The position numbers and the translations under genes are program-made. Of a DNA stretch of 64,000 bases, positions 8,195 to 33,953 are shown piece after piece. The notes under the pieces were generated by a model. That model was not told the origin of the DNA and ran no database searches. It saw only the letters and a program-made list of their open reading frames with translations. The DNA is taken from assembly GCA_903832055.1 (NCBI GenBank), contig CAILAC010000013.1:310001-374000 (forward strand). Direction: 5' to 3'. The number at the start of each line of letters is the position of its first letter. The stretch's first letter is position 1. Source of the DNA: an uncultured Acidobacteriota bacterium (GTDB lineage Bacteria; Acidobacteriota; Terriglobia; Terriglobales; Acidobacteriaceae).

Positions 8195-9532
<1,338 letters not shown>

Positions 9533-17821: not shown

Positions 17822-18172
17822 TCAGTCAATTTCCATCTCAATCGAAACAATATCCAGTTCCCGGCCCTGCCGAACATCGCCACTGGGCGTATCGCACTCA
17901 GGACAACTGAATTTCTGGATTCCCGGCAGCACGCGCAATTGCCCGCAAGGAAGGCAAAAAATCGCCACCGGGCACTCCTCAATCTCAAGAGTAGAACCAG
18001 ACAGGATCGTCCCTGCGGCTCCAATGTCATAGCTGAAAAGGAGTGCATCCTTCGAAACTCCGGACAGGGCACCCAGTCTGACCTTAACCGAATTCACCTG
18101 CTTTGCGTGGGCTTCCTTCGCATATTGCTCAACCGTTTCAACGATGCTATAAACCAGCGAGAGTTCATGCAT
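17822..18172 (-). CDS. hypA: [NiFe]-hydrogenase nickel-insertion protein HypA
   Basis: A 116-residue metallochaperone that delivers nickel, with HypB, to the hydrogenase large subunit. The N-terminal MHE carries the nickel-ligand His2. The zinc site is formed by Cys73 and Cys76 (CLPC) and Cys90 and Cys93 (CPEC). It is divergent from adhE and separated from the hox genes by adhE and hypF. HypB is not in the window. The 5' gap contains a GTGAC-N4-ATCAC copy oriented towards this gene. Confidence 0.96.
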   Translation of the reverse strand: MHELSLVYSIVETVEQYAKEAHAKQVNSVKVRLGALSGVSKDALLFSYDIGAAGTILSGSTLEIEECPVAIFCLPCGQLRVLPGIQKFSCPECDTPSGDVRQGRELDIVSIEMEID

Positions 18173-18228: not shown

Positions 18229-18242
18229 GTGATAACAGTCAC
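18229..18242 (-). promoter_or_regulatory. Crp/Fnr-type site oriented to hypA: GTGAC-N4-ATCAC
   Basis: Read on the minus strand the site is GTGACTGTTATCAC, identical at all ten defined positions to the sites ahead of adhE and hoxE. Its distance from the hypA ATG is 56 nt. The -10 at the expected spacing is poor (GATAGA at offset 39 instead of 37), so direct activation of hypA is less certain than for the other two. Confidence 0.6.
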
Positions 18243-18284
18243 AGGTCCTTCATTCCACGGGAAATACGTCATACTTGGCCGCCG

Positions 18285-18327
18285 GTGACGGGCATCACTG
18301 CTAGTTCTACAAGTGCACTTCTATACT
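18285..18327 (+). promoter_or_regulatory. adhE promoter: Crp/Fnr-type site plus -10
   Basis: GTGACGGGCATCAC at 18285-18298 is followed by TATACT at 18322-18327, a 5/6 match to the -10 consensus. The site starts 37 nt before the -10, which puts its centre near -41.5 relative to a start of transcription near 18334. That is class II activator geometry. There is no good -35 hexamer, as expected for an activator-dependent promoter. Confidence 0.7.
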
Positions 18328-18420
18328 TGCATACGTCACAGTTTTGCGCTCACAACAGTATGAATCAAGCAGTAACGTGGAATGCACTCAACCTGACAAT
18401 GAACTGAAGGAGTGGACACT

Positions 18421-21069
18421 ATGCCGATCACCACACTCACCGACCTAGATACGCTCACTGCCCGCGTAAAGGCGGCGCAGCAGATCTATGCAACTTTTTC
18501 ACAGGCTCAGGTTGATTCCATCTTTCGCAGCGCCGCGCTGGCGGCCAGCAATGCCCGCATCCATCTCGCTCAGTTCGCATTCGAAGAAACGGGAATGGGC
18601 GTGGTCGAAGACAAGGTCATCAAAAACCACTTCGCCAGCGAATACATCTACAACAAATACAAAGATGAATTGACCTGCGGCGTGCTTGAGCAGGACGACA
18701 CGGCAGGCACCATCACTCTCGCCGAGCCCGTCGGCGTCATCTGCGGCATCGTGCCCATTACCAATCCAACTTCGACAACGATCTTCAAGGCTCTTATCAG
18801 TCTCAAAACACGCAATGGCATCGTCTTCAGCCCCCATCCACGCGCCAGCCGCTGCACTTCCGAGGCGGCCCGAATCGTCCTCGATGCTGCCGTTGCAGCC
18901 GGCGCTCCCGCTGACATCATCGGATGCATTGATGCCCCAACCATCGAACTCTCCAATGCCCTCATGCATCACAAAAACATTGACATGATCCTCGCCACCG
19001 GTGGCCCCGGCATGGTGCGTGCTGCCTATTCATCCGGCAAACCCGCCATTGGCGTGGGAGCAGGCAATACGCCCGTGGTTGTTGACGAAACTGCCGATCT
19101 CAAGCGAACTGTCGCCTCCATCCTGCTCTCCAAAACCTTTGACAACGGAATGATCTGTGCCTCAGAACAGGCCGTGATTGCCGTTGACGCCATCTATCCC
19201 GCTCTGCGCGAGCGCTTCGTTCAGCACGGTGGCTTCGTGCTCTCTGCTGAAGAGCTTGAATCCGTGCGCACCACCGTCTTTCACGATGGCGCACTCAACG
19301 CCGCCATCGTTGGACAATCCGCAGTAACCATCGCCACGCTCGCCAACGTAAGTGTCCCTGCTGATACAAAGGTCCTGCTCGGCGAGGTCGACAGTACAGA
19401 CACATCTGAACCCTTTGCGCATGAAAAGCTCTCTCCTGTTCTGGCCCTGTATCGCGCCCGCAACTTTGATCACGCACTCCAACTCGCTTCAGAACTGGTC
19501 GCCCTTGGCGGCTTCGGCCATACCTCTGTTTTGTGCACCGATCAGGATCGCAATCCCGATCGCGTCATCGCTTTCGGTCAACGCATGAAGACCGCCCGTA
19601 TACTCGTCAACAGCCCCTCATCCCACGGCGGCATCGGCGACCTGTACAACTTCAGCATCGCCCCCTCTCTCACTCTCGGCTGCGGCTCATGGGGTGGTAA
19701 TTCCGTATCAGAAAACGTGGGCCCAAAGCACCTGATCAATCGCAAAGTTGTGGCCAAACGTGCCGAGAACATGCTCTGGCACAAGGTTCCACGCTCTGTG
19801 TATTTCCGTCGCGGAGCAGTTGCAGAGGCGCTCAAGGAAGTAGAGGGCTTGAAGCGTGCTCTCGTCGTGACCGACGCATTTCTTTTCCGCAATGGCAACG
19901 CAGATTCCGTGATTCATTTGCTCAAGCAGCATGGCCTTGAAGTAGAAGTCTTCTACCAGGTTCAGGCTGACCCAACACTTGCCCAAATTCGTAAAGGCGT
20001 CGAAGTCGCCAACGCCTTTCAGCCCGATGTGATCGTAGCCTTCGGTGGCGGATCACCCATGGATGCAGCAAAGATTCTGTGGGTCATGTACGAGCACCCC
20101 GAGGTACTTTTTGAAGATCTCGCACTTCGCTTCATGGACATTCGCAAACGCATCTACCACTTTCCAAAGATGGGAATCAAAGCGCAACTCATCGCCATCC
20201 CAACCACATCCGGCACCGGCAGCGAAGTCACACCATTCGCTGTCGTAACCGATGAAGCAACCGGCATCAAATACCCCATCGCCGACTACGAACTCATGCC
20301 CACCATGGCCATCGTAGATGCCAACTTTGTCATGCATCTGCCTCGCTCACTCACCGCCGCCGGCGGCCTCGATGCCATCACACATGCCATTGAAACCTAC
20401 GTCTCCATCCTCGCCAACGAGTTCACCGACGGCCAGGCATTGCAGGCCCTTAGTCTGCTCAAGCAGTACCTTCCTGCCGCCTATGAAGAGGGTGCAGCCA
20501 ACCCGACCGCGCGCGAAAAAGTCCATTCTGCAGCCACCATCGCAGGCATAGCTTTTGCCAACAGTTTCCTTGGCGTCTGCCATTCACTCGCGCACAAAAT
20601 CGGCTCCGCTTTTCACATCCCGCACGGAATCGCAAACGCCATGCTCCTCGCCAATGTCATTCGCTACAACGCCAATGACAACCCCACCAAGCAGGCAGCG
20701 TTCTCCCAATACGATCGCCCAAAAGCCAAGTGCCGTTACGCTGAAATCGCAGATCGCCTCGCACTTCCCGGAGGCTCAAACGATGAAAAAGTAGCAAGTC
20801 TCGTCGCCTGGTTTGAATCTCTCAATCGCCAACTCGGCGTGCCCGCCTCAATTCGCGAATTCGGAATTCCAGAGGCGGATTTTCTCGCCCAAGTCGATTC
20901 AATTGCACTCGATGCCTTTGACGATCAATGCACCGGAGCCAATCCACGCTATCCACTCATCGACGAGCTAAAAGCCATCCTGCTCGACAGCTACTATGGC
21001 CGGCCGTTTGTGGAACTTCATGCGCGTCATCCACTGATGGAGCATCACCTCGCCGCTGCTTCCATATAG
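18421..21069 (+). CDS. adhE: Bifunctional acetaldehyde-CoA/alcohol dehydrogenase (AdhE)
   Basis: Converts acetyl-CoA to ethanol with two NADH. The N-terminal aldehyde dehydrogenase half (about 1-440) has the catalytic Cys in FDNGMICASEQAV and the cofactor region GVGAGNTPVVVDE. The C-terminal iron-alcohol dehydrogenase half (about 450-882) has AFGGGSPMDAAK, and iron ligands in ITHAIETYVS and HSLAHKIGSAFHIPHG. Length 882 is normal. An in-frame GTG nine nt earlier overlaps AAGGAG (18407-18412), so the ATG at 18421 (8-nt spacing) is the start. AdhE usually forms filaments called spirosomes. It is flanked by hypA and hypF, which ties fermentation to hydrogenase maturation. Confidence 0.97.
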   Translation: MPITTLTDLDTLTARVKAAQQIYATFSQAQVDSIFRSAALAASNARIHLAQFAFEETGMGVVEDKVIKNHFASEYIYNKYKDELTCGVLEQDDTAGTITLAEPVGVICGIVPITNPTSTTIFKALISLKTRNGIVFSPHPRASRCTSEAARIVLDAAVAAGAPADIIGCIDAPTIELSNALMHHKNIDMILATGGPGMVRAAYSSGKPAIGVGAGNTPVVVDETADLKRTVASILLSKTFDNGMICASEQAVIAVDAIYPALRERFVQHGGFVLSAEELESVRTTVFHDGALNAAIVGQSAVTIATLANVSVPADTKVLLGEVDSTDTSEPFAHEKLSPVLALYRARNFDHALQLASELVALGGFGHTSVLCTDQDRNPDRVIAFGQRMKTARILVNSPSSHGGIGDLYNFSIAPSLTLGCGSWGGNSVSENVGPKHLINRKVVAKRAENMLWHKVPRSVYFRRGAVAEALKEVEGLKRALVVTDAFLFRNGNADSVIHLLKQHGLEVEVFYQVQADPTLAQIRKGVEVANAFQPDVIVAFGGGSPMDAAKILWVMYEHPEVLFEDLALRFMDIRKRIYHFPKMGIKAQLIAIPTTSGTGSEVTPFAVVTDEATGIKYPIADYELMPTMAIVDANFVMHLPRSLTAAGGLDAITHAIETYVSILANEFTDGQALQALSLLKQYLPAAYEEGAANPTAREKVHSAATIAGIAFANSFLGVCHSLAHKIGSAFHIPHGIANAMLLANVIRYNANDNPTKQAAFSQYDRPKAKCRYAEIADRLALPGGSNDEKVASLVAWFESLNRQLGVPASIREFGIPEADFLAQVDSIALDAFDDQCTGANPRYPLIDELKAILLDSYYGRPFVELHARHPLMEHHLAAASI

Positions 21070-21096
21070 CACTTGCGATGACGAATCCATGTTCTA

Positions 21097-23460
21097 TCAT
21101 TTGCGCCCAAGCTTTGCTGCTGCGACGACGGCCTGTCCGTAACTGAGGCCGCCGTCGCCCGGGCTCACCCGCGATGGCAGATACACGTCAAATCCCGCAT
21201 CTCTCAACCTCACATTCAAGAGACGCATCAGCAGCTTGTTATGCGCCACTCCGCCACTCACGCACACCTGTTCAATTCCGCTACAACTGCGCGCATGCAA
21301 GGCAAGTTTGAAATAGCCAAGCGCAACAGCTTTGTGAAAGCGATAGCTCATCACCGACTCCTCTTCGCCTGCATCGATATCAGCCAGGAGGGCACGAAAC
21401 AAGGATGCGGGATCAAGTTGCCAGGGAGCCCCAACAACCACCTCGTTTGAATTCCAACAAGAAGCGCCGGGCACGACGGCAATTTCATAGTCCTGTCCAC
21501 CATCATTTGCAATGAACTCTTCGTCAATCAAAAGCGCACGACCTTCAAGTTCAATTGCAGCCTGTGCCTCGTACTCAACAGTTCTTCGTTGCAAAATCAG
21601 CGCCGCCGCTGCATCAAAAAGCCGGCCACAACTCGATGTAAGAGGACTGTTAATGCCGCGCGTAATCATCCGATGCAAGAGCTTTATCGAAGTATCATTG
21701 GAACCGAGCCGCTGCATCACACGAGGCGAAAACGCCTCATCACCCAACGCATCCATGAGATGACTGAACGCCATGCGCCACGGCTCTCGTATCGCCGCAT
21801 CTCCTCCAGGCATCGCCACATATTTCAAGTGACCAAAGCGGGTGAAGTCTGCATAATTGCAGAGCAGCACTTCCCCTCCCCACACGTGCCCATCGCTCCC
21901 AAATCCAGTACCATCAAGCGCGAGTCCAATGACCCTCTGCGTCAGATCGTGTTCAGCCATGCAGCCCGCAATGTGCGCATGATGGTGCTGCACTGCAACA
22001 CGCTGCAGACTCTGTCTTTGCGCCCATTGCGTCGACATGTACGCCGGATGAAGATCATGCGCGATTACCTCTGGCTCAATTTCAAATGTGTTCTTCAGAT
22101 GTGCCAGAGCCTCCTCAAAAAAGCTGATGCCTGAAAGATTTTCCAGGTCCCCGAGATGCTGGCTTTGATAAGCATTGCGTCCAGCGGCGAGACAAAATGT
22201 GCTCTTGAGATGGCCTCCCACTGCAAGCAACGGCGGCGCATCAAATGGCAGCCGCACCGGCAAAGGAACAAATCCGCGCGCACGACGCAATATCTGCGGC
22301 TTTCCCTCAACCACCTGCAAGACAGAGTCATCGCAACGCTGCAGAATCTCGCGATCGTGCATTACAAACGCATCAGCGATATCCTGCAACCGCTCAAATG
22401 CCTCATCGTTATCGATTGCAATCGGCTCATCGCTTAAGTTGGCGCTCGTCATCACCAAAGCCTTGAGCGCTCCACTGGCCAACAGCAAATGATGAAGTGG
22501 CGCATAGGGTAAAAACACACCCAACCAGGGAATCCCCGGCGCAACCGATTCAGCAATGAAGCTGAGTTCTCTTCGACGCAACAGCACAATCGGTCTTTCC
22601 ACCCGCGTCAGCAATCCCCGCTCTGCCTCGTCCATTTCACAAGCGCCGTCAACCGCCTCAGCCTCCTTCAGCATTACCGCCAGCGGCTTGCCAAAGCGAT
22701 GCTTGCGCTGGCGCAGTCTCTGCACCGCAGATTCATTGGTCGCATCCACCGCAAGATGAAATCCGCCTATGCCCTTAATCGCCAATATTTCGCCTCGAAG
22801 CAAGTGCCTTATCGCCTCATCCACTGGGACTTCCGCCTCAATCGGCGCGCCCGCAGTATCGACCATCCATATTCGGGGTCCACACACGCTGCATGCATTG
22901 GGCTGCGCATGAAAGCGACGATTCATCGGGTCGTCGTACTCTGCCTGACAAATTGCACACATCGGAAACTTTGCCATCGACGTCTGCGGCCTGTCATATG
23001 GAATGCTGCGCGTAATGGTGAAGCGGGGTCCGCAATTGGTGCAGTTGATAAAGGGATAGCGAAAGCGGCGATCCAGCGGATCAAGCATCTCGCGCACGCA
23101 ATCGTCGCAGGTCGCCGCATCCGCAGGTATTTGAGCTGAGACAGCCCCTCTGACCTCGCTATGCAAAATGCGGAACGTCCGATCCCCAGCACAAGGCAAC
23201 TCATCAACGACAATGTCTGAAATCAGAGCCAGCGGCGGCTTCTCTAAGGGCAATCGCCGCAGGAAAGATGCGACCGCTTGGATCTGCCCCTCAATCTCAA
23301 TCGTCACGCCGCCTGTATCGTTCACAATGCTTCCAGCAAGTCCCTCTTCGCCCGCCAGTCGATAGATATAGGGGCGAAAGCCAACCCCCTGTACCACACC
23401 ACCAACCTGAATTCGACGACGAATCTTCTCCTGCATACGATCAGTCTTCCGATCTCTCAT
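21097..23460 (-). CDS. hypF: Hydrogenase maturation carbamoyltransferase HypF
   Basis: Makes the cyanide ligands of the [NiFe] centre by transferring a carbamoyl group to HypE. Domain order is normal for 787 residues. The acylphosphatase domain has VVQGVGFRPYIYRLA. Two zinc-finger pairs follow: CDDC with CTNC, and CAIC with CSVC. The YrdC-like domain has IKGIGGFHLAVDATN and RLRQRKHRFGKP. The Kae1-like C-terminal domain has HHHAHIAGCMAEH and GLALDGTGFGSDG. It is convergent with adhE (27 nt) and divergent from hoxE. HypE, HypC and HypD are not in the window. Confidence 0.97.
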   Translation of the reverse strand: MRDRKTDRMQEKIRRRIQVGGVVQGVGFRPYIYRLAGEEGLAGSIVNDTGGVTIEIEGQIQAVASFLRRLPLEKPPLALISDIVVDELPCAGDRTFRILHSEVRGAVSAQIPADAATCDDCVREMLDPLDRRFRYPFINCTNCGPRFTITRSIPYDRPQTSMAKFPMCAICQAEYDDPMNRRFHAQPNACSVCGPRIWMVDTAGAPIEAEVPVDEAIRHLLRGEILAIKGIGGFHLAVDATNESAVQRLRQRKHRFGKPLAVMLKEAEAVDGACEMDEAERGLLTRVERPIVLLRRRELSFIAESVAPGIPWLGVFLPYAPLHHLLLASGALKALVMTSANLSDEPIAIDNDEAFERLQDIADAFVMHDREILQRCDDSVLQVVEGKPQILRRARGFVPLPVRLPFDAPPLLAVGGHLKSTFCLAAGRNAYQSQHLGDLENLSGISFFEEALAHLKNTFEIEPEVIAHDLHPAYMSTQWAQRQSLQRVAVQHHHAHIAGCMAEHDLTQRVIGLALDGTGFGSDGHVWGGEVLLCNYADFTRFGHLKYVAMPGGDAAIREPWRMAFSHLMDALGDEAFSPRVMQRLGSNDTSIKLLHRMITRGINSPLTSSCGRLFDAAAALILQRRTVEYEAQAAIELEGRALLIDEEFIANDGGQDYEIAVVPGASCWNSNEVVVGAPWQLDPASLFRALLADIDAGEEESVMSYRFHKAVALGYFKLALHARSCSGIEQVCVSGGVAHNKLLMRLLNVRLRDAGFDVYLPSRVSPGDGGLSYGQAVVAAAKLGRK

Positions 23461-23626
23461 CTCTGGCGAAACGATCTTTACGATGGAATTGCCATCAGCA
23501 ACTCATAACTCTAACAACTTACACGCGAAACACGATGTGACTTTGCGCCGGAATCCTCATCAACCATCTCGCTTGCTGGTTTTACGCCATGACATCTCTC
23601 ATTAAATGTGTCATTTACAGTTCAAC

Positions 23627-23669
23627 GTGACAGCCATCACCGACGTGTGTACTCTTGCAATCGTACAAA
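23627..23669 (+). promoter_or_regulatory. hox operon promoter: Crp/Fnr-type site plus -10
   Basis: GTGACAGCCATCAC at 23627-23640 is followed by TACAAA at 23664-23669. The start-to-start distance is 37 nt, exactly as at adhE. The predicted start of transcription near 23676 gives a leader of about 41 nt before the hoxE GTG. The -10 is a 4/6 match. Confidence 0.65.
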
Positions 23670-23716
23670 GGAATTGTCCGCTGTGGTTCAAACGGGCAGT
23701 CTTCGCAGGAGGAAAC

Positions 23717-24217
23717 GTGCAAGCATATTCCATGCCCCCGCTGCCATCCGATGACAAGCGCTGGCGCATCGTCAACGGGACCATGCGACGCCACGGCTAC
23801 AACCGTCACGCCCTGATTGAGACCCTCCACACCGTACAGTCATCGTTCGGCTATCTCGATGAGGGCGCAATTCGTTTCGTTGCCAAATCTCTCCGCGTTC
23901 CCCTGAGCCAGGCCTACGGCGTGGCAACTTTCTACCATCACTTCAGCCTCAAAGCCCCCAGCAAACACACCTGCACCGTTTGCATCGGCACAGCCTGCTA
24001 CATCAAGGGCGCTGACAAGCTCGTAGTGGCGGCTGAAAAGCAGCTCCATATCAAAGCCGGCAAGTCCACGCCAGATGGCAACATCGCGCTCATGACTGCT
24101 CGTTGCGTCGGTGCCTGCGGCCGTGCTCCCGTCATGCTTGCCGATGAAGAACTCGTTGGATTGATCGAGCCAGCCCAATTGCTGGAGCAGTTGGAAAGGT
24201 GGACAGTCAATGACTAG
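23717..24217 (+). CDS. hoxE: Bidirectional hydrogenase diaphorase subunit HoxE
   Basis: NuoE-like [2Fe-2S] protein of the diaphorase module. The cluster cysteines are in CTVCIGTACYIKG and TARCVGACGRAPV. The helical N-terminal half has LIETLHTVQSSFGYLDEGAI and YGVATFYHHF. A longer in-frame ATG at 23606 would put the start upstream of the predicted transcription start. The GTG at 23717 follows AGGAGG (23707-23712) at four nt and gives a normal 166-residue protein. It overlaps hoxF by 8 nt. Confidence 0.93.
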   Translation: MQAYSMPPLPSDDKRWRIVNGTMRRHGYNRHALIETLHTVQSSFGYLDEGAIRFVAKSLRVPLSQAYGVATFYHHFSLKAPSKHTCTVCIGTACYIKGADKLVVAAEKQLHIKAGKSTPDGNIALMTARCVGACGRAPVMLADEELVGLIEPAQLLEQLERWTVND

Positions 24218-25883
24218 CGAAGAACTCCTCCAGATTGCCGAAACCGTCCAGGCAGAGCACGCCAACTTCGACTATGAAGTCAACGTATGCATGGGCACCG
24301 GCTGCATGTCGCAGCACAGTGACAAGCTCAAAGCCACGCTCACCAAAGAGGCAACCGCCTCCGGCAAGCACTGCCACGTGCGTCAGACCGGTTGCATGGG
24401 CCTTTGCGCGGCCGGTCCTCTCGTTCTCGTCGATCCCAAAAATTCCGATAAAGACATCCTCTACGGCGGCGTTCACGAGGCCGATTCTTATGAATTAATC
24501 GCCAGTCTCGACGCCAAACCCGTCGAGCGCCTCCTCACCCGCCTCGAACACTACTTCGACGGCCAGCAGCACATTGTCCTCGAAAACTCCGGCCACATCG
24601 ATCCCGAAAAAATCGACGAATACATCGCCCGCGACGGCTATCAGGCGCTCGTCATGGCGCTCACTGAGATGGACCCACAATCGGTCATCGATCAGATTTC
24701 CAAAAGCGGACTCCGCGGACGCGGCGGCGGCGGTTATCCCACCGGCCTCAAGTGGGGCACAGTCGCCAAGGCAATCGGTCCGCAAAAGTACGTCATCTGC
24801 AACGGCGACGAGGGCGACCCCGGCGCATTCATGGACCGCAGCGTCCTAGAGAGCGACCCACAGCGCGTCATCGAGGGCATGACTATCGCCGCCTTCGCCG
24901 TCGGTGCCAGCAAAGGCTACGCCTACGTCCGCGCCGAATATCCGCTCGCCGTCAGCCGCCTCACCGCATCTCTTCGTGAGGCCCGCCGCCGCGGCTTCCT
25001 CGGCAACAACATCTGCGGAACCGCCTTCTCCTTCGACATCGAAATTCGCCTCGGAGCGGGCGCGTTTGTCTGCGGTGAAGAAACAGCCCTCATCGCCTCC
25101 ATCGAGGGTCTGCGGGGCCAGCCACGCCCCCGCCCGCCCTATCCTGCAATGTCCGGCCTATGGGGTTTACCCACGCTCATCAACAACGTCGAAACCTTCG
25201 CCAACATCGCCCCCATCATCCGCAAAGGCGCTGACTGGTACGCCGGCATCGGCACTGAAAAAAGCAAGGGAACCAAAGTCTTTGCCCTCACCGGCAAAAT
25301 CACCAACACTGGCCTCGTCGAAATTCCCATGGGCATGCCTCTCCGCCAGATCGTCTTCGGTATCGGCGGTGGCGTTCCTGACGGCCGCAAGTTCAAGGCC
25401 GTCCAGACCGGTGGCCCTTCCGGCGGCTGCATACCCGACGAGCACCTCGACCTGCCCGTCAGCTACGAGGCACTCACCAACGTTGGCTCCATGATGGGCT
25501 CCGGAGGCATGATCGTCATGGACGACACCTCCTGCATGGTCAACGTCGCTCGCTTCTTCATGGAGTTCTGCATGACCGAGTCCTGTGGCAAATGCATCCC
25601 CTGCCGCGCCGGTACAGCGCAGATGTTTGGAATCCTCAGCAAAATCTGCGACGGCAAAGCCTCCCATGCCGATCTCGACCTGCTCATCGACCTCTGCGAC
25701 GTCGTCAAGCACACCAGCCTCTGCGGCCTGGGCATGACCGCGCCAAACCCCGTCCTAAGCACGCTGCGCTACTTCAAACACGAGTATCTTGAACACATCG
25801 ATCACCAACACTGTCGCGCCGGCGTCTGCGCCTGCGGCACCAAAGATGCATCACAGCTCGCCGCAGCAGAGGTGACAGCATGA
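24210..25883 (+). CDS. hoxF: Bidirectional hydrogenase diaphorase subunit HoxF (NADH/FMN)
   Basis: NuoF-like subunit that exchanges electrons with NAD(H). It begins with a thioredoxin-like [2Fe-2S] domain ([24 protein letters not shown]). Next is the FMN/NADH domain with [15 protein letters not shown] and [14 protein letters not shown]. The [4Fe-4S] site is in [13 protein letters not shown] plus the distal Cys of TSLCGLG. A short C-terminal extension contains CRAGVCACG, which could hold an additional metal or cluster; in some homologues this region is longer and ferredoxin-like. Length 557. It overlaps hoxU by 4 nt (ATGA). Confidence 0.96.
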
Positions 25884-26605
25884 GCGTTGCAACCGACGTA
25901 AAAACACTCGTCATCGACGGCATCAATGTAAGCGCTCGCGCCGACCAGACCATCCTTGAGGTCGCCCGCGAAAACAACATCAACATCCCCACCCTCTGTC
26001 ACCTCGACGGCCTCTCAGACGTCGGCGCGTGCCGCCTCTGCCTCGTCGAAGTCAAAGGCTCCCCAAAGCTCAACCCCTCCTGCGTTCTCAAAGTTGAAGA
26101 AGGCATGGAGGTCACCACCTCCTCCGATCGCCTCAAGCACTATCGCCAGACCATCCTTGAACTCCCCTTCGCCGAGCGCAACCACGTCTGCTCCGTCTGC
26201 GTCGCCAACGGCCATTGCGAACTCCAGTCCCTAGGCCAGTCCCAGGGCCTCACCCACGTCCGCATGCCCTACCGCAACCCCCAGCTTGAGGTTGACGCTT
26301 CTCACGAACGATTCGTCGTCGATCACAACCGCTGCATCCTCTGCACACGCTGCGTCCGAGTCTGCGGCGAAGTAGAAGGCGCACACGTCTGGGATGTTAT
26401 GGGCCGCGGCATCGACTCCATCGTCATCACCGACCTCTGCGACCCCTGGGGAGAATCCAGTTGCACCCGCTGCGGCAAATGCGTTCAGGTCTGCCCCACC
26501 GGCGCGCTCTTTGACAAGAGCAAAGTCGGCTCGCCTCACCCCAAATACCCTGAATTCCTCACCAACCTGCAAGTCATGCGCGAAGCGTCACGCGAGGGAC
26601 TATGA
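25880..26605 (+). CDS. hoxU: Bidirectional hydrogenase diaphorase subunit HoxU
   Basis: NuoG-N-terminal-like iron-sulfur protein of 241 residues. The [2Fe-2S] domain has [15 protein letters not shown]. The His/Cys [4Fe-4S] site is in [14 protein letters not shown] with the upstream KHYRQ histidine. Two ferredoxin-type clusters follow in [11 protein letters not shown] and [14 protein letters not shown]. It passes electrons between HoxF and the HoxY/HoxH hydrogenase. Coupled by 4-nt overlaps to both neighbours. Confidence 0.96.
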
Positions 26606-27135
26606 GCAAAATCAAAGTCGCAACAGTCTGGCTCGACGGCTGCTCCGGTTGTCACATGTCGTTCCTCGACATGGACGAGCGCCTCATTGAACTCAGCAGC
26701 CAGATCGATCTCGTCTTCAGCCCCCTCGTCGACTTCAAAATCTACCCCGAAAACGTAGACCTCGCCCTCGTCGAAGGCGCAATCTCCAGCGTCGAAGACG
26801 AACACAAAATCAAAATGATCCGCAAGCGTACGAAATTCCTCATCGCCATGGGAGACTGCGCCGTCACCGCCAACGTCCCCGCCATGCGCAACCCCTTCGG
26901 CCCCGAACCAATCCTCGAGCGTGCCTACCATGAGAATGTCTCCACCGGCGCTCAGATTCCCTGCGTATTTGTCCCGGCATTGCTTGAAAAAGTCCGTCCG
27001 GTCCACGAATTTGTCCCAGTAGACCTGTTCCTCCCCGGCTGCCCTCCCTCAGCCGACACCTTCTACACCGTGCTCACTGACCTGCTCGCCGGTCGCACCC
27101 CTGACGTTGCAAGTCTCACCCGCTTTGGCGCTTAG
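26602..27135 (+). CDS. hoxY: [NiFe]-hydrogenase small subunit HoxY
   Basis: Small subunit of 177 residues with the proximal [4Fe-4S] cluster. The ligands are in [21 protein letters not shown] and [11 protein letters not shown]. It has no Tat signal and no C-terminal multi-cluster domain, as expected for a soluble group 3d enzyme. A 4-nt overlap links it to hoxU and it is 11 nt before hoxH. Confidence 0.96.
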
Positions 27136-27146
27136 GAGAAAGTCTT

Positions 27147-28571
27147 ATGTCACAGACCATCACCATCGATCCAGTAACGCGCCTCGAAGGCCACGGCAAG
27201 ATCACCCTCAAAACCAATGACCAGGGCGAGGTTTCAGAGGCCTACTTCACCGTCACCCAGGTGCGCGGCTTTGAAAAATTCTCCCAGGGCCGCCCCTTCT
27301 ACGAGATGCCCGGCCTCATGGCCCGCATCTGCGGCATCTGCCCCGTCAGTCACCTCCTCGCCTCCGCCAAGGCCTGCGAAGCCATCATGTCCGTCACCAT
27401 TCCCCCCACCGCCGCCAAGCTGCGCAGCGCTTTGAACATGGCGCAGACCATCCAGTCCCACGCCCTCAGCTTCTTCTACCTCTCCTCCCCCGACCTGCTC
27501 CTCGGCATGGACGCTGACCCCGCCGACCGCAACATCTTCGGCGTCGTCAAGGTTGACCCCGAGCTCGGCCGCGCCGGCGTCGCCCTCCGCCGCTTCGGGC
27601 AGCACATCATCGAGCTCCTCGGCAAAAAGCGCATCCACCCCGGCTGGGTCGTCCCCGGCGGCGTCACTGAACCCCTCGACTCCGCCAAGCGCGACGAAAT
27701 CCTCGCCATGATTCCCGAGGCCTACGCCAACATCCGCCTCGCGCTCAACTGGTACAAGCGCATCGCCGACCGCTTCCGCGACGAAGCCGATCACTTCGCC
27801 AACTTCCCCGGAGCCTTCCTCGGCATGGTCGGCGAAGACAACGGGCTCGAATTCACCGACGGCAAGCTCCGCCTCATCGACGCCACCGGCAAAATCCTCG
27901 TCGACAAGCTCGAAGCAGCCCAGTTCGATGACCACTTCGGCGAAGCCGTCGAACCCTACTCCTACATGAAGTTCCCCTATTACAAGCCCCTCGGCTACCC
28001 CGATGGCTCCTACCGCGTCGGCCCTCTCGCCCGCCTCAACATCGCTACCCACGCCGGCACGCCCCTCGCCGACATTGAAGTCAAGGAATTCAAGCAGCTC
28101 GCCAACGGCCCCGTCCTCGGCTCCTTCTACTTCCACCACGCCCGCCTCATTGACATCCTCTACGGCATTGAATTCATCGAACGCATCTTCTCCGACCCCA
28201 CCATCCTCGACACCCACGTCCGCGCCACCGCCGGCGTCAACCGCCTCGAAGGATCAGGCGTCGCAGAGGCCCCGCGCGGCACACTCATGCACCACTACAA
28301 AGTTGACGAAAACGGCCAGATGCTCTGGGCCAACCTCGTCATCGCCACCGGCCAGAACAACAACGCCATGAACCGCGGCGTCCTCCAGACCGCGCAACGC
28401 TACGTCAAAGGCGACAAACTCGCCGATGGCATGCTCAATCGCGTCGAAGCCGTCATTCGCACCTTTGACCCCTGCCTCAGTTGCTCCACCCACGCCTTCG
28501 GCCAGATGCCTCTCGAAATCAAACTCGTCGCTCCCGATGGCTCCACCCTCGACACCATCCGTCGCGGCTGA
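27147..28571 (+). CDS. hoxH: [NiFe]-hydrogenase large catalytic subunit HoxH
   Basis: Holds the NiFe active site. The L1 motif RICGICPVSH gives Cys62 and Cys65. The L2 motif DPCLSCSTH gives Cys443 and Cys446, with cleavage expected after His449, leaving a 25-residue C-terminal peptide. The N-terminus TIDPVTRLEGHGKI is typical. AGGAGA precedes the ATG by 7 nt. The residues and the HoxEFU partners place it in the bidirectional NAD(P)-linked group 3d. The last A of its stop codon is the first base of the hoxW ATG. Confidence 0.97.
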   Translation: MSQTITIDPVTRLEGHGKITLKTNDQGEVSEAYFTVTQVRGFEKFSQGRPFYEMPGLMARICGICPVSHLLASAKACEAIMSVTIPPTAAKLRSALNMAQTIQSHALSFFYLSSPDLLLGMDADPADRNIFGVVKVDPELGRAGVALRRFGQHIIELLGKKRIHPGWVVPGGVTEPLDSAKRDEILAMIPEAYANIRLALNWYKRIADRFRDEADHFANFPGAFLGMVGEDNGLEFTDGKLRLIDATGKILVDKLEAAQFDDHFGEAVEPYSYMKFPYYKPLGYPDGSYRVGPLARLNIATHAGTPLADIEVKEFKQLANGPVLGSFYFHHARLIDILYGIEFIERIFSDPTILDTHVRATAGVNRLEGSGVAEAPRGTLMHHYKVDENGQMLWANLVIATGQNNNAMNRGVLQTAQRYVKGDKLADGMLNRVEAVIRTFDPCLSCSTHAFGQMPLEIKLVAPDGSTLDTIRRG

Positions 28572-29113
28572 TGTCCCTTTCTCCGGCAAACCCATCGCCG
28601 CAAGCGAGTCTCGCCCAGCCCCTGCTGCTCGCTTGCGGCAACCCACTTCGCGGCGACGACGGCGTCGGCTGGCGCATCGCCGATACCCTCGCAATCACCC
28701 CCAGCACCCCTCCCCTCCACGTCATCCTCTCCCAGCAGCTCCTCCCCGAGCACGCCGAACCCATCAGCGCCGCAGATCTCGTCATCTTCGTAGATTGCTC
28801 CGCGCTCACCCCGCACGGAGTTGTTTCCGTCATCCAAATCGAACCCGCCTCAAGCCTTCCCCGCATCTTCACCCACCACCTTGACCCAGCCTCCCTGCTC
28901 AGGCTCACGGTTGACCTCTACGGCCGCATCCCTTCCCGCTCCATCCTCGTCACCGTCGGGGGCCAGGAGTTCGAGCTGAGCGAGGAACTAAGCCCCCCCG
29001 TAGCCGCCGCCATCCCCGCTGCCATCGCCCTGATTCTCCGCGAATTCCAGTTGCAGCAAGCAAAAAATCCGGCCCAGCAAATGAAAGCGGCTGGGCCGGT
29101 GGAAGCTCCTTGA
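28571..29113 (+). CDS. hoxW: Hydrogenase maturation endopeptidase HoxW
   Basis: Nickel-dependent protease of the HycI/HupD family that removes the HoxH C-terminal peptide. ACGNPLRGDDGVGW contains the conserved nickel-binding acidic residue, IFVDCSA the second, and IFTHHLDPASLL the expected His region. The start is fused to the hoxH stop (TGATG). The last about 15 codons (KNPAQQMKAAGPVEAP) coincide with the terminator hairpin of the converging nifJ operon, so the tail is probably unstructured and recent. Length 180. Confidence 0.92.
   Translation: MSLSPANPSPQASLAQPLLLACGNPLRGDDGVGWRIADTLAITPSTPPLHVILSQQLLPEHAEPISAADLVIFVDCSALTPHGVVSVIQIEPASSLPRIFTHHLDPASLLRLTVDLYGRIPSRSILVTVGGQEFELSEELSPPVAAAIPAAIALILREFQLQQAKNPAQQMKAAGPVEAP
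29061..29099 (-). terminator. Terminator of the nifJ operon, embedded in the hoxW 3' end
   Basis: CCGGCCCAGC (29069-29078) pairs with GCTGGGCCGG (29090-29099). On the minus strand it is followed by ATTTTTTG (complement of 29061-29068). It lies 20 nt beyond the stop of the dihydroorotate-dehydrogenase-like gene and inside the coding region of hoxW. Confidence 0.88.
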
Positions 29114-29119
29114 AGCAAA

Positions 29120-30151
29120 CTATTTGCGCTGATGAGTTTGGTGCAGCGGCGCCCGGTGCAGCGGATATGAGCTCAGCGTCTTGATGTAATTTCCCCGCTC
29201 ATAAGGCGTCGGATCAGGCACCGAACTCCGGCTCAGCGCCCCCCGCATCTGGTTCGTCGATTCGTATTCGTGATCCTTCATCCACCTCACAACATCCGCC
29301 TGCACCGCCGCAAGATGCCGGATGCCGTACTGATGCAGCGCCGAAGTCATCATCGTCACCGCCGCACCCGCCATAATCCCCTTCAGCACATCTTCCGCCG
29401 TATGCACGCCCCCCGTAATCGCCAGGTCCGCCCGCACCCGGTGAAAAAGAATAGCCACCCAATGCAACCGCAACAGCAACTCACTTGAATTGCTGTAGCA
29501 AAGTCGCGGCAACACAGTCAGCCTCTCAATATCAAAATCCGGCTGGTAAAACCTGTTGAACAAGACCAGCCCATTTGCCCCCGCATCCGCCAGTTGCACC
29601 GCCAGATTCGGAATACTCGTGAACTGCGGCGAAAGCTTCACCGCCAGAGGAATCTTGATGTGGCTCCGAACATGCGCCACCAGCTCAATCAGGTGTTTCT
29701 CCACCTCATTGCTCGGCACCAGCGGATCAGTCACCAGCGCATACGTATTCAGTTCAATCGCATCCGCGCCCGCCGCCTCCACCTCCTTTGCAAAGTGCAT
29801 CCAACCGCCCGGAGTAATACCGTTGATACTGGCTATAATCGGGATCGCAACACACTCCTTCACCCGCATCAAGTGGTCCAGATACGCATCCGATCCCGCC
29901 CTGTAGTCAGGAAACTCCGGCAGATAACTCAACGACTCCGCAAACGACTCCGTCCCCTGCGAAAGATCCCGGTCCAGCGTGTAACTCTCAAGATTCAGCT
30001 GCTCCTCAAACAACGACCGCAGCACGATCGCAGCCGCTCCAGAATCTTCCATAAGACGCACGTTCTGAATCGACTCAGAAAGCGGCGACGCGGAAACCAC
30101 CAAAGGACTCTTCAGTTGAAGTCCCAGATACTGCGTGCTCAGGTCAATCAT
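29120..30151 (-). CDS. Dihydroorotate-dehydrogenase-like flavoprotein paired with NifJ
   Basis: An FMN-type TIM barrel of 343 residues: GLQLKSPLVVSASPLS, IIASINGITPGGW, ADAIELNTYA, PLAVKLSPQFTSIPNL and ADLAITGGVHTAEDVLKGIMAGA. It lacks an N-terminal membrane segment and the common DHOD catalytic Cys/Ser loop is not evident. The 4-nt overlap with nifJ shows translational coupling, so a role beside pyruvate:ferredoxin oxidoreductase is likely, not pyrimidine synthesis. Whether it passes electrons to or from ferredoxin, or acts on another substrate, is not known. Confidence 0.85.
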   Translation of the reverse strand: MIDLSTQYLGLQLKSPLVVSASPLSESIQNVRLMEDSGAAAIVLRSLFEEQLNLESYTLDRDLSQGTESFAESLSYLPEFPDYRAGSDAYLDHLMRVKECVAIPIIASINGITPGGWMHFAKEVEAAGADAIELNTYALVTDPLVPSNEVEKHLIELVAHVRSHIKIPLAVKLSPQFTSIPNLAVQLADAGANGLVLFNRFYQPDFDIERLTVLPRLCYSNSSELLLRLHWVAILFHRVRADLAITGGVHTAEDVLKGIMAGAAVTMMTSALHQYGIRHLAAVQADVVRWMKDHEYESTNQMRGALSRSSVPDPTPYERGNYIKTLSSYPLHRAPLHQTHQRK

Positions 30152-33100
30152 GGTTCCTGCCTTTCAGCTCCCGCCGCTACCGGCTCTTCTTCTCTCTCCG
30201 GCGGAGCAATATGGGGCGATTCGCTGCGCCCCGGCATCGCGGCCCGCGCCGAGTAAACATGCCATTGCCGCTCGACATCGTCCTGCGCCTCATGCAACAA
30301 CTCCTTGGCTATCTCCGGATGGCTGCGCGCCAGCATCGTATAGCGAGCCTCCTGGTACGCATAGTCCTTCAACGGAATCGACGGCGCCTTCGAGTCCAGC
30401 AGAAACGGGTTCTTACCCTGCTCGCGAAGCGCCGGGTTGTACCGCATCAGCGGCCAATAGCCTGAGTTCACCGCCGCTTTCTGCTGGTCCAGCCCATGAA
30501 TCAAGTCATATCCATGCGCAATGCACGGGCTGTACGCCAGAATGATTGACGGCCCGTTATGCGCCTCCGCCTCTTGAAATGCCTTCACCGTGTGGCTGTC
30601 ATTCCCCCCAAACGCCACCCGCGCCACATACACCGAGCCATAACTCACCGCCTCCATCGCCAGGTCTTTCTTGCTGTTCGGCTTTCCGCCGGCGGCAAAT
30701 TTGGCAATCGCCCCGCGCGGCGTTGACTTCGACATCTGCCCACCGGTATTGGAATAAACCTCTGTATCCAGCACCAGCACATTGATGTTCTGCCCCGACC
30801 CCAGCACATGATCCAGACCGCCAAATCCAATATCGTAGGCCCAGCCATCACCACCCAATATCCACACGCTTTTCCTTACCAGCGAATCGACAACCGCCAT
30901 CAGATTCCGCGCCTCAGAGCTGTGCCCATTGAAGCTGCGCACCGCGGCGGCTCCATTCTCCATTCCAGACTGGCTCAGAATCTCCTTGATCTTCTCCACC
31001 CGGTGCCGTTGCTGGTTGATCCCCGCCTCAGTCGTTTGATCCGCCGTCAGCGTCGCCAGGCCCAGCTCCGTCCCAATGAAAGGCATCATCCGTCGCAGCA
31101 GGTCCTCGGCAAAGCTACGCTGCTGGTCAACCGCCAACCGCATCCCCAGCCCAAACTCCGCGTTGTCCTCAAACAGCGAGTTCGACCACGAGGGCCCGCG
31201 ACCATCCTTATTCATCGTGTACGGCGTCGTCGGCAGATTTCCGCCATAGATCGACGAACACCCCGTAGCGTTCGCAATCATCAGCCGGTCCCCAAACAAC
31301 TGCGTCAGCAGCTTGATGTACGGAGTTTCGCCGCACCCTGCACAGGCTCCAGAAAACTCAAAAAGCGGCTCCAGAAGCTGCACATCCTTTACCTGACCGT
31401 GGTTCAACCGGTTCCGGTCAACATTCGGCAGCGATTCAAAGAACTCCCAGTTCGCCTTTTCAGCCACCCGAAGCGGTGCCTGTTCATGCATATTCAGCGC
31501 CTTGTGCTTCGCCTCGCTCTTGCTCTTCACCGGGCAAATCTCCACGCAAAGCTGACAGCCCGTGCAATCCTCAGGAGACACCTGCAAGCTGTAAAGCTCC
31601 TCCTCCATCGACCGCCATTTAGGCTTCGCCGTCTTGAAGCTCGCAGGCGCATGCTCCGCATATTTCACATCAAAAACCTTTGCCCGAATCACCGCATGTG
31701 GACAAACCATCACGCACTTGCCGCATTGAATGCAAAGCTCCTTGTCCCACACCGGAATCGCCTGCGCAATATTTCGCTTCTCCCACTTCGCCGTCCCCGT
31801 CGGAAAACTCCCGCCAGCAGGCAGCGCGCTCACCGCCAGGTTGTCGCCAAACCCGGCAGCCATCGTCCCCAGCACATCCCTTACAAATGCCGGAGCCGTG
31901 AATGGAATCGCCGGAAGTATCTCAAATGTCGCGCTCACAACTCTCGGCACCGCTACCTGGTAAAGATGCGCCAGCGCCGAGTCCACCGCGTCATAGTTCT
32001 GCTGCACCACCGCTTCGCCGCGTTTGCCATACGTCTTCTTGATTGCCTTCTTGATCTGCGCAATCGCCTCATCCCTGGGCAGCACTCCGCTGATCGCAAA
32101 GAAGCACGTCTGCATGATCGTATTGATGCGGTTGCCCATCCCCGCCGCCCGCGCCACCTTGTAACCGTCAATCACATAAAAATGTAGCTTCCGGTCGATA
32201 ATCGTTGCCTGTGTCTTGCGAGGCAGATGCTCCCAGATATCATCCGGGCCATACGGCGAATTCAGCAGAAACACCGCCCCCGGCGCCGCAGCCACCAGCA
32301 CATCCATCCGCTCCAGAAAATTGAACTGATGGCATGCTATAAAGTTCGCCTTCGTAATCAGATACGTTGAAGTAATCGGTTCCGGCCCAAACCTCAAATG
32401 CGAAGTCGTAATGGACCCCGACTTCTTCGAGTCATAAACGAAATAGCCCTGCGCGTAGTTATTCGTCTCCGAGCCAATAATCTTGATTGAATTCTTGTTC
32501 GCCCCCACCGTTCCATCCGAACCAAGTCCATAAAACAGCGCGCGTATCGTCCGCGCACTCTCCGTTGAAAACTCCGGATCATACGCCAGGCTCGTATGCG
32601 TAACATCATCCTCAATTCCGATTGTGAAGTGGTTCTTCGGCGTCTTCTTCTTCAACTCATCAAAGATCCCCTTCACCATCCCCGGCGTAAACTCCTTCGA
32701 AGACAGCCCGTAGCGCCCGCCAACAATCCGCGGCTGCTGCTCAAAATGCGAGTTGCCTTCAGCAAACCCCTCTGCCACCGCAGTAATGATGTCCTGATAC
32801 AGCGGCTCTCCCAGGCTCCCCGGCTCTTTCGTGCGGTCCAGCACCGCGATCGTGCGCACCGATTTCGGGAGCGCATTCAGCAGCGATTTCACATCAAATG
32901 GCCTGAACAACCGCACCATCAGTACCCCGACCTTTTCGTCCTTCAGCGCAGCATCCCGTATCGCCTCTTCAGCCGCCCCCGCGCTCGAACCCATCAGCAC
33001 GATCACCCGCTCCGCATCCGCCGCGCCCATATAGTCAAACAGCCTGTAAGCGCGACCCGTCTGCCTCGCAAACCGGTCCATCACATCCTGCACAATCGCC

Positions 33101-33825
33101 GGTGCCGCCAGATAGTAAGGGTTGCAGGCCTCCCGCGCCTGAAAGAAAACATCCGGATTCTGCGCCGTCCCCCGCAGTACCGGCCTGTCCGGGGTGAGAG
33201 CCCGCTGCCGGTGCGCAATCACAAATCGCTCATCCAGCAACGCGCGTATATCCTCATCGCTTATCGGAGTAATCTTGTTCACTTCATGCGAAGTCCGGAA
33301 TCCGTCAAAGAAATGCAAAAATGGCAGCCGCGGCTCCAGCGAAGCAACATGCGCAATCAGCGCCAGATCAGCCGCCTCCTGCACCGAGTTTGAACACAGC
33401 ATCGCATAGCCCGTGCTTCGGCAAGCCATCACATCCGAGTGGTCGCCAAAGATCGACAGAGCATGCGTCGCCAGCGCCCGCGCCGTCACATGCATCACAT
33501 TTGCCGTCAGTTCCCCGGCAATCTTGTACATGTTCGGGATCATCAACAACAATCCCTGCGAAGCGGTAAACGTAGTGCTCAAAGCACCCGCCTGCAACGC
33601 CCCATGCATCGCCCCGGCCGCTCCGCCCTCGCTCTGCATTTCTGCAATCAGCGGCACCGAACCCCAAAAGTTCGGCTTCCCCTCTTCCTTCCACTGGTCA
33701 GACCATTCGCCCATCGGCGAAGAAGGTGTAATCGGGTAGATTGCTATAACTTCGGAAAGCCGGTAGGCCACAGACACCACCGCTTCGTTGGCATCCAAAA
33801 TGACTGAGGTTCGCTTGTCCATGCC
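30148..33825 (-). CDS. nifJ: Pyruvate:ferredoxin (flavodoxin) oxidoreductase NifJ
   Basis: Single-chain enzyme of about 1225 residues that oxidises pyruvate to acetyl-CoA and CO2 and reduces ferredoxin. Visible in order: the N-terminal domain with YRLSEVIAIYPITPSSPMGE, the gamma-like domain, two ferredoxin-type clusters (CIQCGKCVMVCPHA, CTGCQLCVEICPVKS), the CAGCGETPY cluster, and the thiamine-diphosphate domain (GDGWAYDIGFGGLDHVL, TEVYSNTGGQMSKST). An in-frame ATG at 33930 adds 35 residues unlike the family, so MDKRTSVILDAN at 33825 is chosen, although its ribosome-binding site is weak. Ferredoxin or flavodoxin is not encoded nearby. Oxygen-sensitive by family. Confidence 0.96.
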   Translation of the reverse strand, partial: GMDKRTSVILDANEAVVSVAYRLSEVIAIYPITPSSPMGEWSDQWKEEGKPNFWGSVPLIAEMQSEGGAAGAMHGALQAGALSTTFTASQGLLLMIPNMYKIAGELTANVMHVTARALATHALSIFGDHSDVMACRSTGYAMLCSNSVQEAADLALIAHVASLEPRLPFLHFFDGFRTSHEVNKITPISDEDIRALLDERFVIAHRQRALTPDRPVLRGTAQNPDVFFQAREACNPYYLAAPAIVQDVMDRFARQTGRAYRLFDYMGAADAERVIVLMGSSAGAAEEAIRDAALKDEKVGVLMVRLFRPFDVKSLLNALPKSVRTIAVLDRTKEPGSLGEPLYQDIITAVAEGFAEGNSHFEQQPRIVGGRYGLSSKEFTPGMVKGIFDELKKKTPKNHFTIGIEDDVTHTSLAYDPEFSTESARTIRALFYGLGSDGTVGANKNSIKIIGSETNNYAQGYFVYDSKKSGSITTSHLRFGPEPITSTYLITKANFIACHQFNFLERMDVLVAAAPGAVFLLNSPYGPDDIWEHLPRKTQATIIDRKLHFYVIDGYKVARAAGMGNRINTIMQTCFFAISGVLPRDEAIAQIKKAIKKTYGKRGEAVVQQNYDAVDSALAHLYQVAVPRVVSATFEILPAIPFTAPAFVRDVLGTMAAGFGDNLAVSALPAGGSFPTGTAKWEKRNIAQAIPVWDKELCIQCGKCVMVCPHAVIRAKVFDVKYAEHAPASFKTAKPKWRSMEEELYSLQVSPEDCTGCQLCVEICPVKSKSEAKHKALNMHEQAPLRVAEKANWEFFESLPNVDRNRLNHGQVKDVQLLEPLFEFSGACAGCGETPYIKLLTQLFGDRLMIANATGCSSIYGGNLPTTPYTMNKDGRGPSWSNSLFEDNAEFGLGMRLAVDQQRSFAEDLLRRMMPFIGTELGLATLTADQTTEAGINQQRHRVEKIKEILSQSGMENGAAAVRSFNGHSSEARNLMAVVDSLVRKSVWILGGDGWAYDIGFGGLDHVLGSGQNINVLVLDTEVYSNTGGQMSKSTPRGAIAKFAAGGKPNSKKDLAMEAVSYGSVYVARVAFGGNDSHTVKAFQEAEAHNGPSIILAYSPCIAHGYDLIHGLDQQKAAVNSGYWPLMRYNPALREQGKNPFLLDSKAPSIPLKDYAYQEARYTMLARSHPEIAKELLHEAQDDVERQWHVYSARAAMPGRSESPHIAPPEREEEPVAAGAERQEP

Positions 33826-33939
33826 GCACCCATGGTCCCAGCCAAATACCAACCCAGCCTGTGCGCGTGTCAGTTCAACGGTACTCTTCCCGCGCTCGGG
33901 ACCTGCGATTAGTGTGCGACCGTGACCCACAATGCCGAT

Positions 33940-33953
33940 GTGATGGACAACAC
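33940..33953 (-). promoter_or_regulatory. Imperfect Crp/Fnr-type site upstream of nifJ
   Basis: Read towards nifJ the sequence is GTGTTGTCCATCAC, matching the island motif at 8 of 10 defined positions. A -10-like ACTAAT lies at offset 40, not 37. It is about 115 nt from the chosen start codon. Tentative. Confidence 0.3.

Follow-up and report, generated by a model that had tools for sequence, protein, structure and literature searches.

FNR promoters of Escherichia coli and Aliivibrio fischeri have class II geometry, which the sites described here appear to share. The FNR of Bacillus subtilis carries three cysteines, placed C-terminally, together with another cluster ligand. The box of the repressor Rex, TTGTGAANNNNTTCACAA, has the same GTGA-N6-TCAC core as our sites. 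HcpR of Desulfovibrio is a Crp/Fnr-family protein with a helix of the R180/E181 type and the target wTGTGAnnnnnnTCACAw, and it is associated with anaerobic energy genes (PMC1274295, PMC545781). According to the first of these papers, R180 and E181 go with the G and A of the GTGA half-site, and the T. tengcongensis orthologue of B. subtilis FNR has a CRP-like motif (PMC1274295).

Acidobacteriota are common soil bacteria, and group 3 bidirectional hydrogenases have been reported in Terracidiphilus MAGs from redox-oscillated peat; the term FNR is absent from that paper (PMC9599518). Among the literature matches listed, none describes the switch of Acidobacteriota to fermentation and H2 turnover, nor an acidobacterial Crp/Fnr regulon of the kind proposed here, and a literature search for the phrase 'GTGA-N6-TCAC' found no paper. 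Here we analyse a window, by which we mean the whole 64,000-bp stretch of DNA, in which adhE and a hox operon are each preceded by a perfect GTGAY-N4-RTCAC site. What is new is the lineage, the detail of the motif and the regulator candidate, while in its mode of working the proposed system follows known Crp/Fnr class II promoters. A defined site, a spacing and a candidate regulator make the acidobacterial fermentation switch testable.

The predicted system resembles HcpR in combining a Crp/Fnr regulator, an R180/E181-type helix, a GTGA/TCAC target and anaerobic energy genes. It differs in that our candidate regulator keeps three N-terminal cysteines whereas HcpR is reported to be without the FNR cysteine motif, and in that the sites here lie at adhE and hox, whereas the core targets of HcpR are hcp and frdX (PMC1274295, PMC545781). 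The inner pair C/T...A/G is also unlike HcpR, and instead matches that in the TTGAC-N4-GTCAA sites found in other delta-proteobacteria. FNR of E. coli and A. fischeri shares with the candidate its fold, N-terminal cysteines and targets of low-oxygen life, but the candidate has a CRP-like reading helix and no central cysteine, and the GTGAY-N4-RTCAC sites differ from the TTGAT-N4-ATCAA of FNR. As with B. subtilis FNR, an FNR-type regulator would be paired with a CRP-like target, but with cysteines that are N-terminal. The cAMP-responsive GlxR and CRP have the closest folds (GlxR first) and identical reading-helix residues; unlike them, the candidate has an N-terminal cysteine motif, and it scores 51.9 bits with the curated CRP model, whose cut-off is 266.

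Sites and genes at the adhE and hox loci

The first-pass annotation had placed three perfect copies of GTGACNNNNATCAC in the window, and we find exactly these three, against a mean of 0.08 and a largest count of 1 in 100 dinucleotide shuffles. With one mismatch allowed there are seven matches where 3.4 are expected, and thus the perfect sites alone stand out in the window. Two of the three lie between hypA (17822..18172, minus strand; Pfam HypA 105 bits, TIGR00100 99 against a cut-off of 88.1) and adhE (18421..21069, plus strand), which encodes a bifunctional acetaldehyde-CoA/alcohol dehydrogenase (NF010378 1389.5 against a cut-off of 951). The coordinates of adhE are those of its first ATG, and an alternative GTG start is possible at 18412. 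The site that we assign to adhE (18285..18298, plus strand), in an inferred class II position, is an exact match with counterparts upstream of orthologues, and the other exact match lies at 18229..18242 on the minus strand. The third site (23627..23640, plus strand) follows hypF (21097..23460, minus strand; TIGR00143 815 against a cut-off of 466.1), and is the putative class II site of the hox operon, kept upstream of hoxE.

The hox operon lies on the plus strand. Its first gene, hoxE (23720..24217, start codon assumed at 23720), has HoxE as its best NCBIfam model, with a score of 217.6 that is just under the cut-off of 224 of that curated model. There follow a hoxF-like gene (24210..25883; Pfam Complex1_51K and NADH_4Fe-4S), a hoxU-like ORF (25880..26605) named by eye from its position and sequence, a hoxY-like small subunit gene (26602..27135; Pfam Oxidored_q6), a hoxH-like large subunit gene (27147..28571; Pfam NiFeSe_Hases), and an ORF (28481..29113) with a weak match to a hydrogenase maturation protease (Pfam HycI, 20.4 bits against a cut-off of 23).

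It had also been claimed that the adhE and hoxE sites start 37 nt before a -10-like hexamer, and this is confirmed for both: the distance runs to the first base of TATACT upstream of adhE (18322..18327, plus strand; predicted start near 18333) and of TACAAA upstream of hoxE (23664..23669, plus strand; predicted start near 23675). TACAAA recurs at the identical offset upstream of hoxE in three further loci (L031, L032 and L033). For the copy that faces hypA, the best -10-like hexamer is TAGAAA at offset 41. This copy may be a site for hypA or an upstream site for adhE, with its centre at about -97.5, the latter role being suggested by CRP class III promoters. All three copies do have the positions given in the first-pass annotation, but the shared orientation that it noted says little, since the GTGAY/RTCAC motif is nearly palindromic.

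Conservation upstream of hoxE and adhE

We searched for HoxE in 150 genomes and used the 22 best matches (53-100% identity, our own included), leaving out the NuoE-like remainder. In 15 of these 22 orthologues the 400 bp upstream of hoxE contain a perfect GTGAYNNNNRTCAC, whereas in 300 dinucleotide shuffles the count averaged 0.02 and never exceeded 1. Among named genomes, in the first 40 of 80 loci, a perfect GTGAYNNNNRTCAC is present upstream of hoxE in 22 of the 25 records titled acidobacterial and in none of the 15 others, with sites less than 50 nt from the start left out of the count. The three acidobacterial records without a perfect site are L131, L149 and L153, the last of which has only 295 bp of upstream sequence. 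It is important to note that the two hoxE sets overlap, with L126 and L031/G002 agreeing in match and promoter, and share ancestry, and their counts are therefore not independent trials. The closest HoxE proteins among named genomes are those of MAGs titled Acidobacteria, Acidobacterium, Acidobacteriaceae and Terracidiphilus. One record titled Phycisphaerales (L137) has a HoxE that is 74% identical to an acidobacterial one, reflecting either a mis-binned contig or a transfer.

For adhE, the 18 best loci were used and single-domain matches left out. Perfect sites lie upstream of all four close orthologues (74-100% identity, our own included) and of none of the 14 distant ones (43-45%); six of these 14 keep GTGA-N6-TCAC with one mismatch. 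The genome G002 keeps both sites of the hypA-adhE region, together with their 56-bp distance. The proposal of a single regulon is weaker for adhE, with its four close orthologues, and for hydrogenase maturation, where the link is the location of the site; hypA is without the 37-nt spacing.

Promoter architecture

Spacing is conserved along with the site. For 19 of 22 perfect hoxE and adhE sites, the best -10-like hexamer at offsets of 33 to 42 falls at 36 or 37; L041 is an exception, as are the upstream sites in both L060 and L061. Among the named-genome hoxE loci with a site, at least one site has its best hexamer at 36 or 37 in 16 of 22. When 45 distinct hoxE and adhE sites are aligned, the flanks are variable except for a G at position 16 (82%), followed by A (51%), C (44%) and A (42%), and an A/T-rich stretch begins at position 38. 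We read the flank pattern as the GACA of a TTGACA -35 box that abuts the palindrome, with 18 bp between it and the -10, the arrangement expected of class II promoters. The hallmarks of that class, namely a fixed distance to the -10 and a site that reaches the -35, are thus recognisable in the sequence, with offsets of 36-37 kept and an apparent -35 remnant abutting. That the sites occupy a class II position had been proposed before, and the retention of site and spacing across genera bears this out as far as promoter sequence can. We are confident that these are functional class II sites for a Crp/Fnr protein.

Distribution of sites in this genome and its relatives

The genome to which the window belongs, with the window on its contig C13, comprises 4.57 Mb in 18 contigs, and contains GTGAYNNNNRTCAC 23 times and the reversed pattern, our control, 10 times. 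GTGA-N6-TCAC overall is hardly raised (63 against 48 in the control), and therefore the excess sits in the Y/R class (23 of 63 against 10 of 48). Judged by eye, 20 of the 23 sites fall in the gaps between main ORFs, each ahead of a gene (L002, L022 and L024 are the exceptions), a judgement that passes over ORFs across sites which we took as spurious, such as one of 321 codons with low GC3 in L007. By comparison, none of five control sites examined, of the 10, is intergenic; all five lie inside long ORFs. The Pfam families beside the sites include Usp (2), BON (2), baeRF10, CcmE, Cytochrom_C_asm, a c-type cytochrome, two multihaem-like cytochromes, Fe-S_biosyn, radical SAM and peroxidase, phosphofructokinase and acetyl-CoA synthetase, SAICAR synthetase, CoA transferase and a TPR protein, while Pfam gave no family for three neighbours (those in L007 and L013, and a 93-residue ORF of L010). 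With many sites ahead of respiratory, stress and anaerobic genes, the regulon claim survives the genome-wide motif search. Over 29 site-gene pairs, with divergent pairs counted both ways and gene starts assumed, TAnnnT occurs six times at offset 36, three times at 37, and at most twice at any other offset.

We had considered ccmE as a second conserved target and dropped it, the site being kept in only 4 of 30 loci of its orthologues. Regulon membership therefore shifts between lineages while hoxE retains its site. On contig C2, a sequence that to the eye looks like a decayed phosphoribosyltransferase gene (L026 8440-9250) comes after a perfect site at 8426, in a region that also carries baeRF10, Usp and BON genes.

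In all 90 genomes of family f1 the pattern outnumbers its reversed control (3528 against 604 in total). We have set this excess aside as stand-alone proof of a regulon, since it also appears in genomes where no regulator was detected, and since codons such as GTG ATC may create the pattern inside genes. The number of sites can also be compared with the number of regulators, for which we counted relatives of two proteins: the regulator encoded on contig C16 (L029-like) and the protein encoded on contig C12 (L028-like). Over the 90 genomes, site number has a rank correlation of 0.70 with L029-like copies, against 0.18 for the control pattern, and of 0.65 with L028-like copies; the partial correlations are 0.36 and 0.16, respectively. 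The ratio of sites to control is 6.6 in 47 genomes with both regulators, 5.5 in 31 with L029-like proteins only, 2.8 in seven with L028-like proteins only, and 6.0 in five with neither, and this last value is evidence against a simple link between regulator and site. The genome G084 (84% complete, about 610 contigs) has 69 perfect sites against 11 control sites, and no R-E-x-x-R helix was found among those of its family matches that were read. If the link between regulator number and site number holds (0.70, 90 genomes), it would describe a regulon growing together with its regulator family. The regulator family is expanded in several relatives, G088, G063, G018 and G082 among them, which carry at least 100 perfect sites together with 10-14 L029-like regulators.

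A candidate regulator and the alternatives to it

Two proteins in the genome combine a cNMP-type domain with a Crp helix-turn-helix, both above cut-off, and these are encoded on C16 and C12; beyond them there are four cNMP matches in three longer frames and two weak helix-turn-helix matches below cut-off. We consider the protein encoded at C16:50241-50978, outside the window, to be probably the regulator. It has 246 residues and belongs to the Crp/Fnr superfamily by its matches to PF00027 (61.1 bits), PF13545 (71.9) and PF00325 (45.5), all above their cut-offs, while the curated Fnr model gives 66.8 bits against a cut-off of 228. Its structural model (mean pLDDT 80.5) matches the folds of GlxR (first), mycobacterial CRP and A. 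fischeri FNR, the last with a TM-score of about 0.8. The reading helix contains SRETVTR, in which R210, E211, T214 and R215 show no variation among the 30 relatives. We count this R210-E211-x-x-T214-R215 helix in favour of the protein because it matches the published link of R180/E181 to GTGA (PMC1274295). At the N-terminus stands C18-x2-C21-x8-C30; among the 30 relatives C18 is kept in 30, C21 in 29, C30 in 30 and C69 in 29. The place that we take, by eye, to be equivalent to C122 of FNR has a cysteine in 15 of 30 relatives and a valine in the C16 protein, which is consequently not an FNR proper, with three N-terminal cysteines and a central one. The earlier suggestion of a less-studied family member with a hybrid site would fit such a protein, with its CRP-like reading helix and FNR-like N-terminal cysteines. 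A perfect site lies within 500 bp upstream of the match in 6 of 30 related regulator loci, our own among the 30, but the 321 bp ahead of the C16 regulator gene itself contain no site, even with two mismatches allowed, and we dropped autoregulation in this genome for that reason. Directly upstream of the gene there is a tRNA-like sequence, recognised by eye (L029 4980-5300).

The sites and their class II geometry could be real and yet be bound by another Crp/Fnr protein, either the C12 protein (L028, C12:232674-233375, helix TRSRVSFF) or several paralogues. That L028-like copies track site number too, that the motif is enriched in the seven genomes with an L028-like and no L029-like protein, and that the C16 gene is without an upstream site of its own all speak for this; against it, the L028 helix is without the glutamate and second arginine that the published rule (PMC1274295) ties to GTGA, the enrichment is higher (5.5) in the 31 genomes that have L029-like but no L028-like proteins, and the partial correlation of L028 is the lower one. 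Weighing these points, we regard a different binding protein as unlikely, though as the most serious of the alternatives.

Much less probable still is control by the NADH-sensing repressor Rex, with the sites as its operators. Rex is reported to control adhE and hydrogenase-related genes in clostridia and relatives. Its box has the GTGA-N6-TCAC core in common with the sites, but every aligned perfect site, given the pattern used to find it, has C/T and A/G at the inner positions, unlike the GTGAA-N4-TTCAC of Rex, and it is in that class that the excess over control lies; moreover, a fixed distance to the -10 and a site that ends at the -35 box are a better fit to an activator. As for a coincidence of short matches, the window has no shortage of one-mismatch sites and TACAAA makes a poor -10, but conservation upstream of hoxE goes far beyond the shuffles and the offset recurs. 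We have rejected chance, which is hardly credible, on the orthologous hoxE promoters (15/22; 22/25 acidobacterial against 0/15 others).

Proposed mechanism

The sites are conserved, regularly spaced and mostly intergenic; activation by a bound protein is what we infer from them. Our favoured explanation, that they are operators of a class II Crp/Fnr-superfamily activator for adhE and hox, is likely as a whole. A Crp/Fnr dimer would bind GTGAY-N4-RTCAC with its centre near -41.5, directly against a weak -35 box, and once bound would help RNA polymerase to use a -10 whose first base lies 36-37 nt past the start of the site. The regulator would probably switch on adhE and the hox operon, which encodes a bidirectional [NiFe] hydrogenase, when oxygen or another electron acceptor runs short, and a wider regulon would include universal stress, BON, c-type cytochrome, cytochrome-maturation and Fe-S genes. 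That the signal is oxygen or redox is a somewhat better than even guess, made from the targets and the cysteines. Against the explanation as a whole we count the hypA spacing, the scarcity of the site at ccmE (4/30) and at distant adhE genes (0/14), the lack of a site at the gene of the regulator itself, the nearly equal correlation of the L028 family, the enrichment in the five genomes with neither regulator and in G084, and the hardly raised count of GTGA-N6-TCAC overall.

More speculatively, and we think this doubtful, expanded FNR-like sensors with CRP-like reading of GTGAY-N4-RTCAC might run the low-oxygen shift in Acidobacteriaceae and their kin. In the lineage of this genome the central cysteine would have been lost and C69 may hold the cluster instead, giving a different sensing site in a known fold.

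The neighbouring pyruvate:ferredoxin oxidoreductase gene

Beside the hox operon, at window positions 29120-33930, lie a pyruvate:ferredoxin oxidoreductase gene and, at its end, a dihydroorotate-dehydrogenase-like gene, an arrangement that may be a pyruvate-to-H2-and-ethanol island. Upstream of the pyruvate:ferredoxin oxidoreductase gene, at 118 bp from its likely start (33822), there is a degenerate site, GTGTTGTCCATCAC (33940..33953, minus strand), and that it might serve this gene we offer as a suggestion only. In G002, a one-mismatch site lies at the matching 118-bp distance from the pyruvate:ferredoxin oxidoreductase gene.
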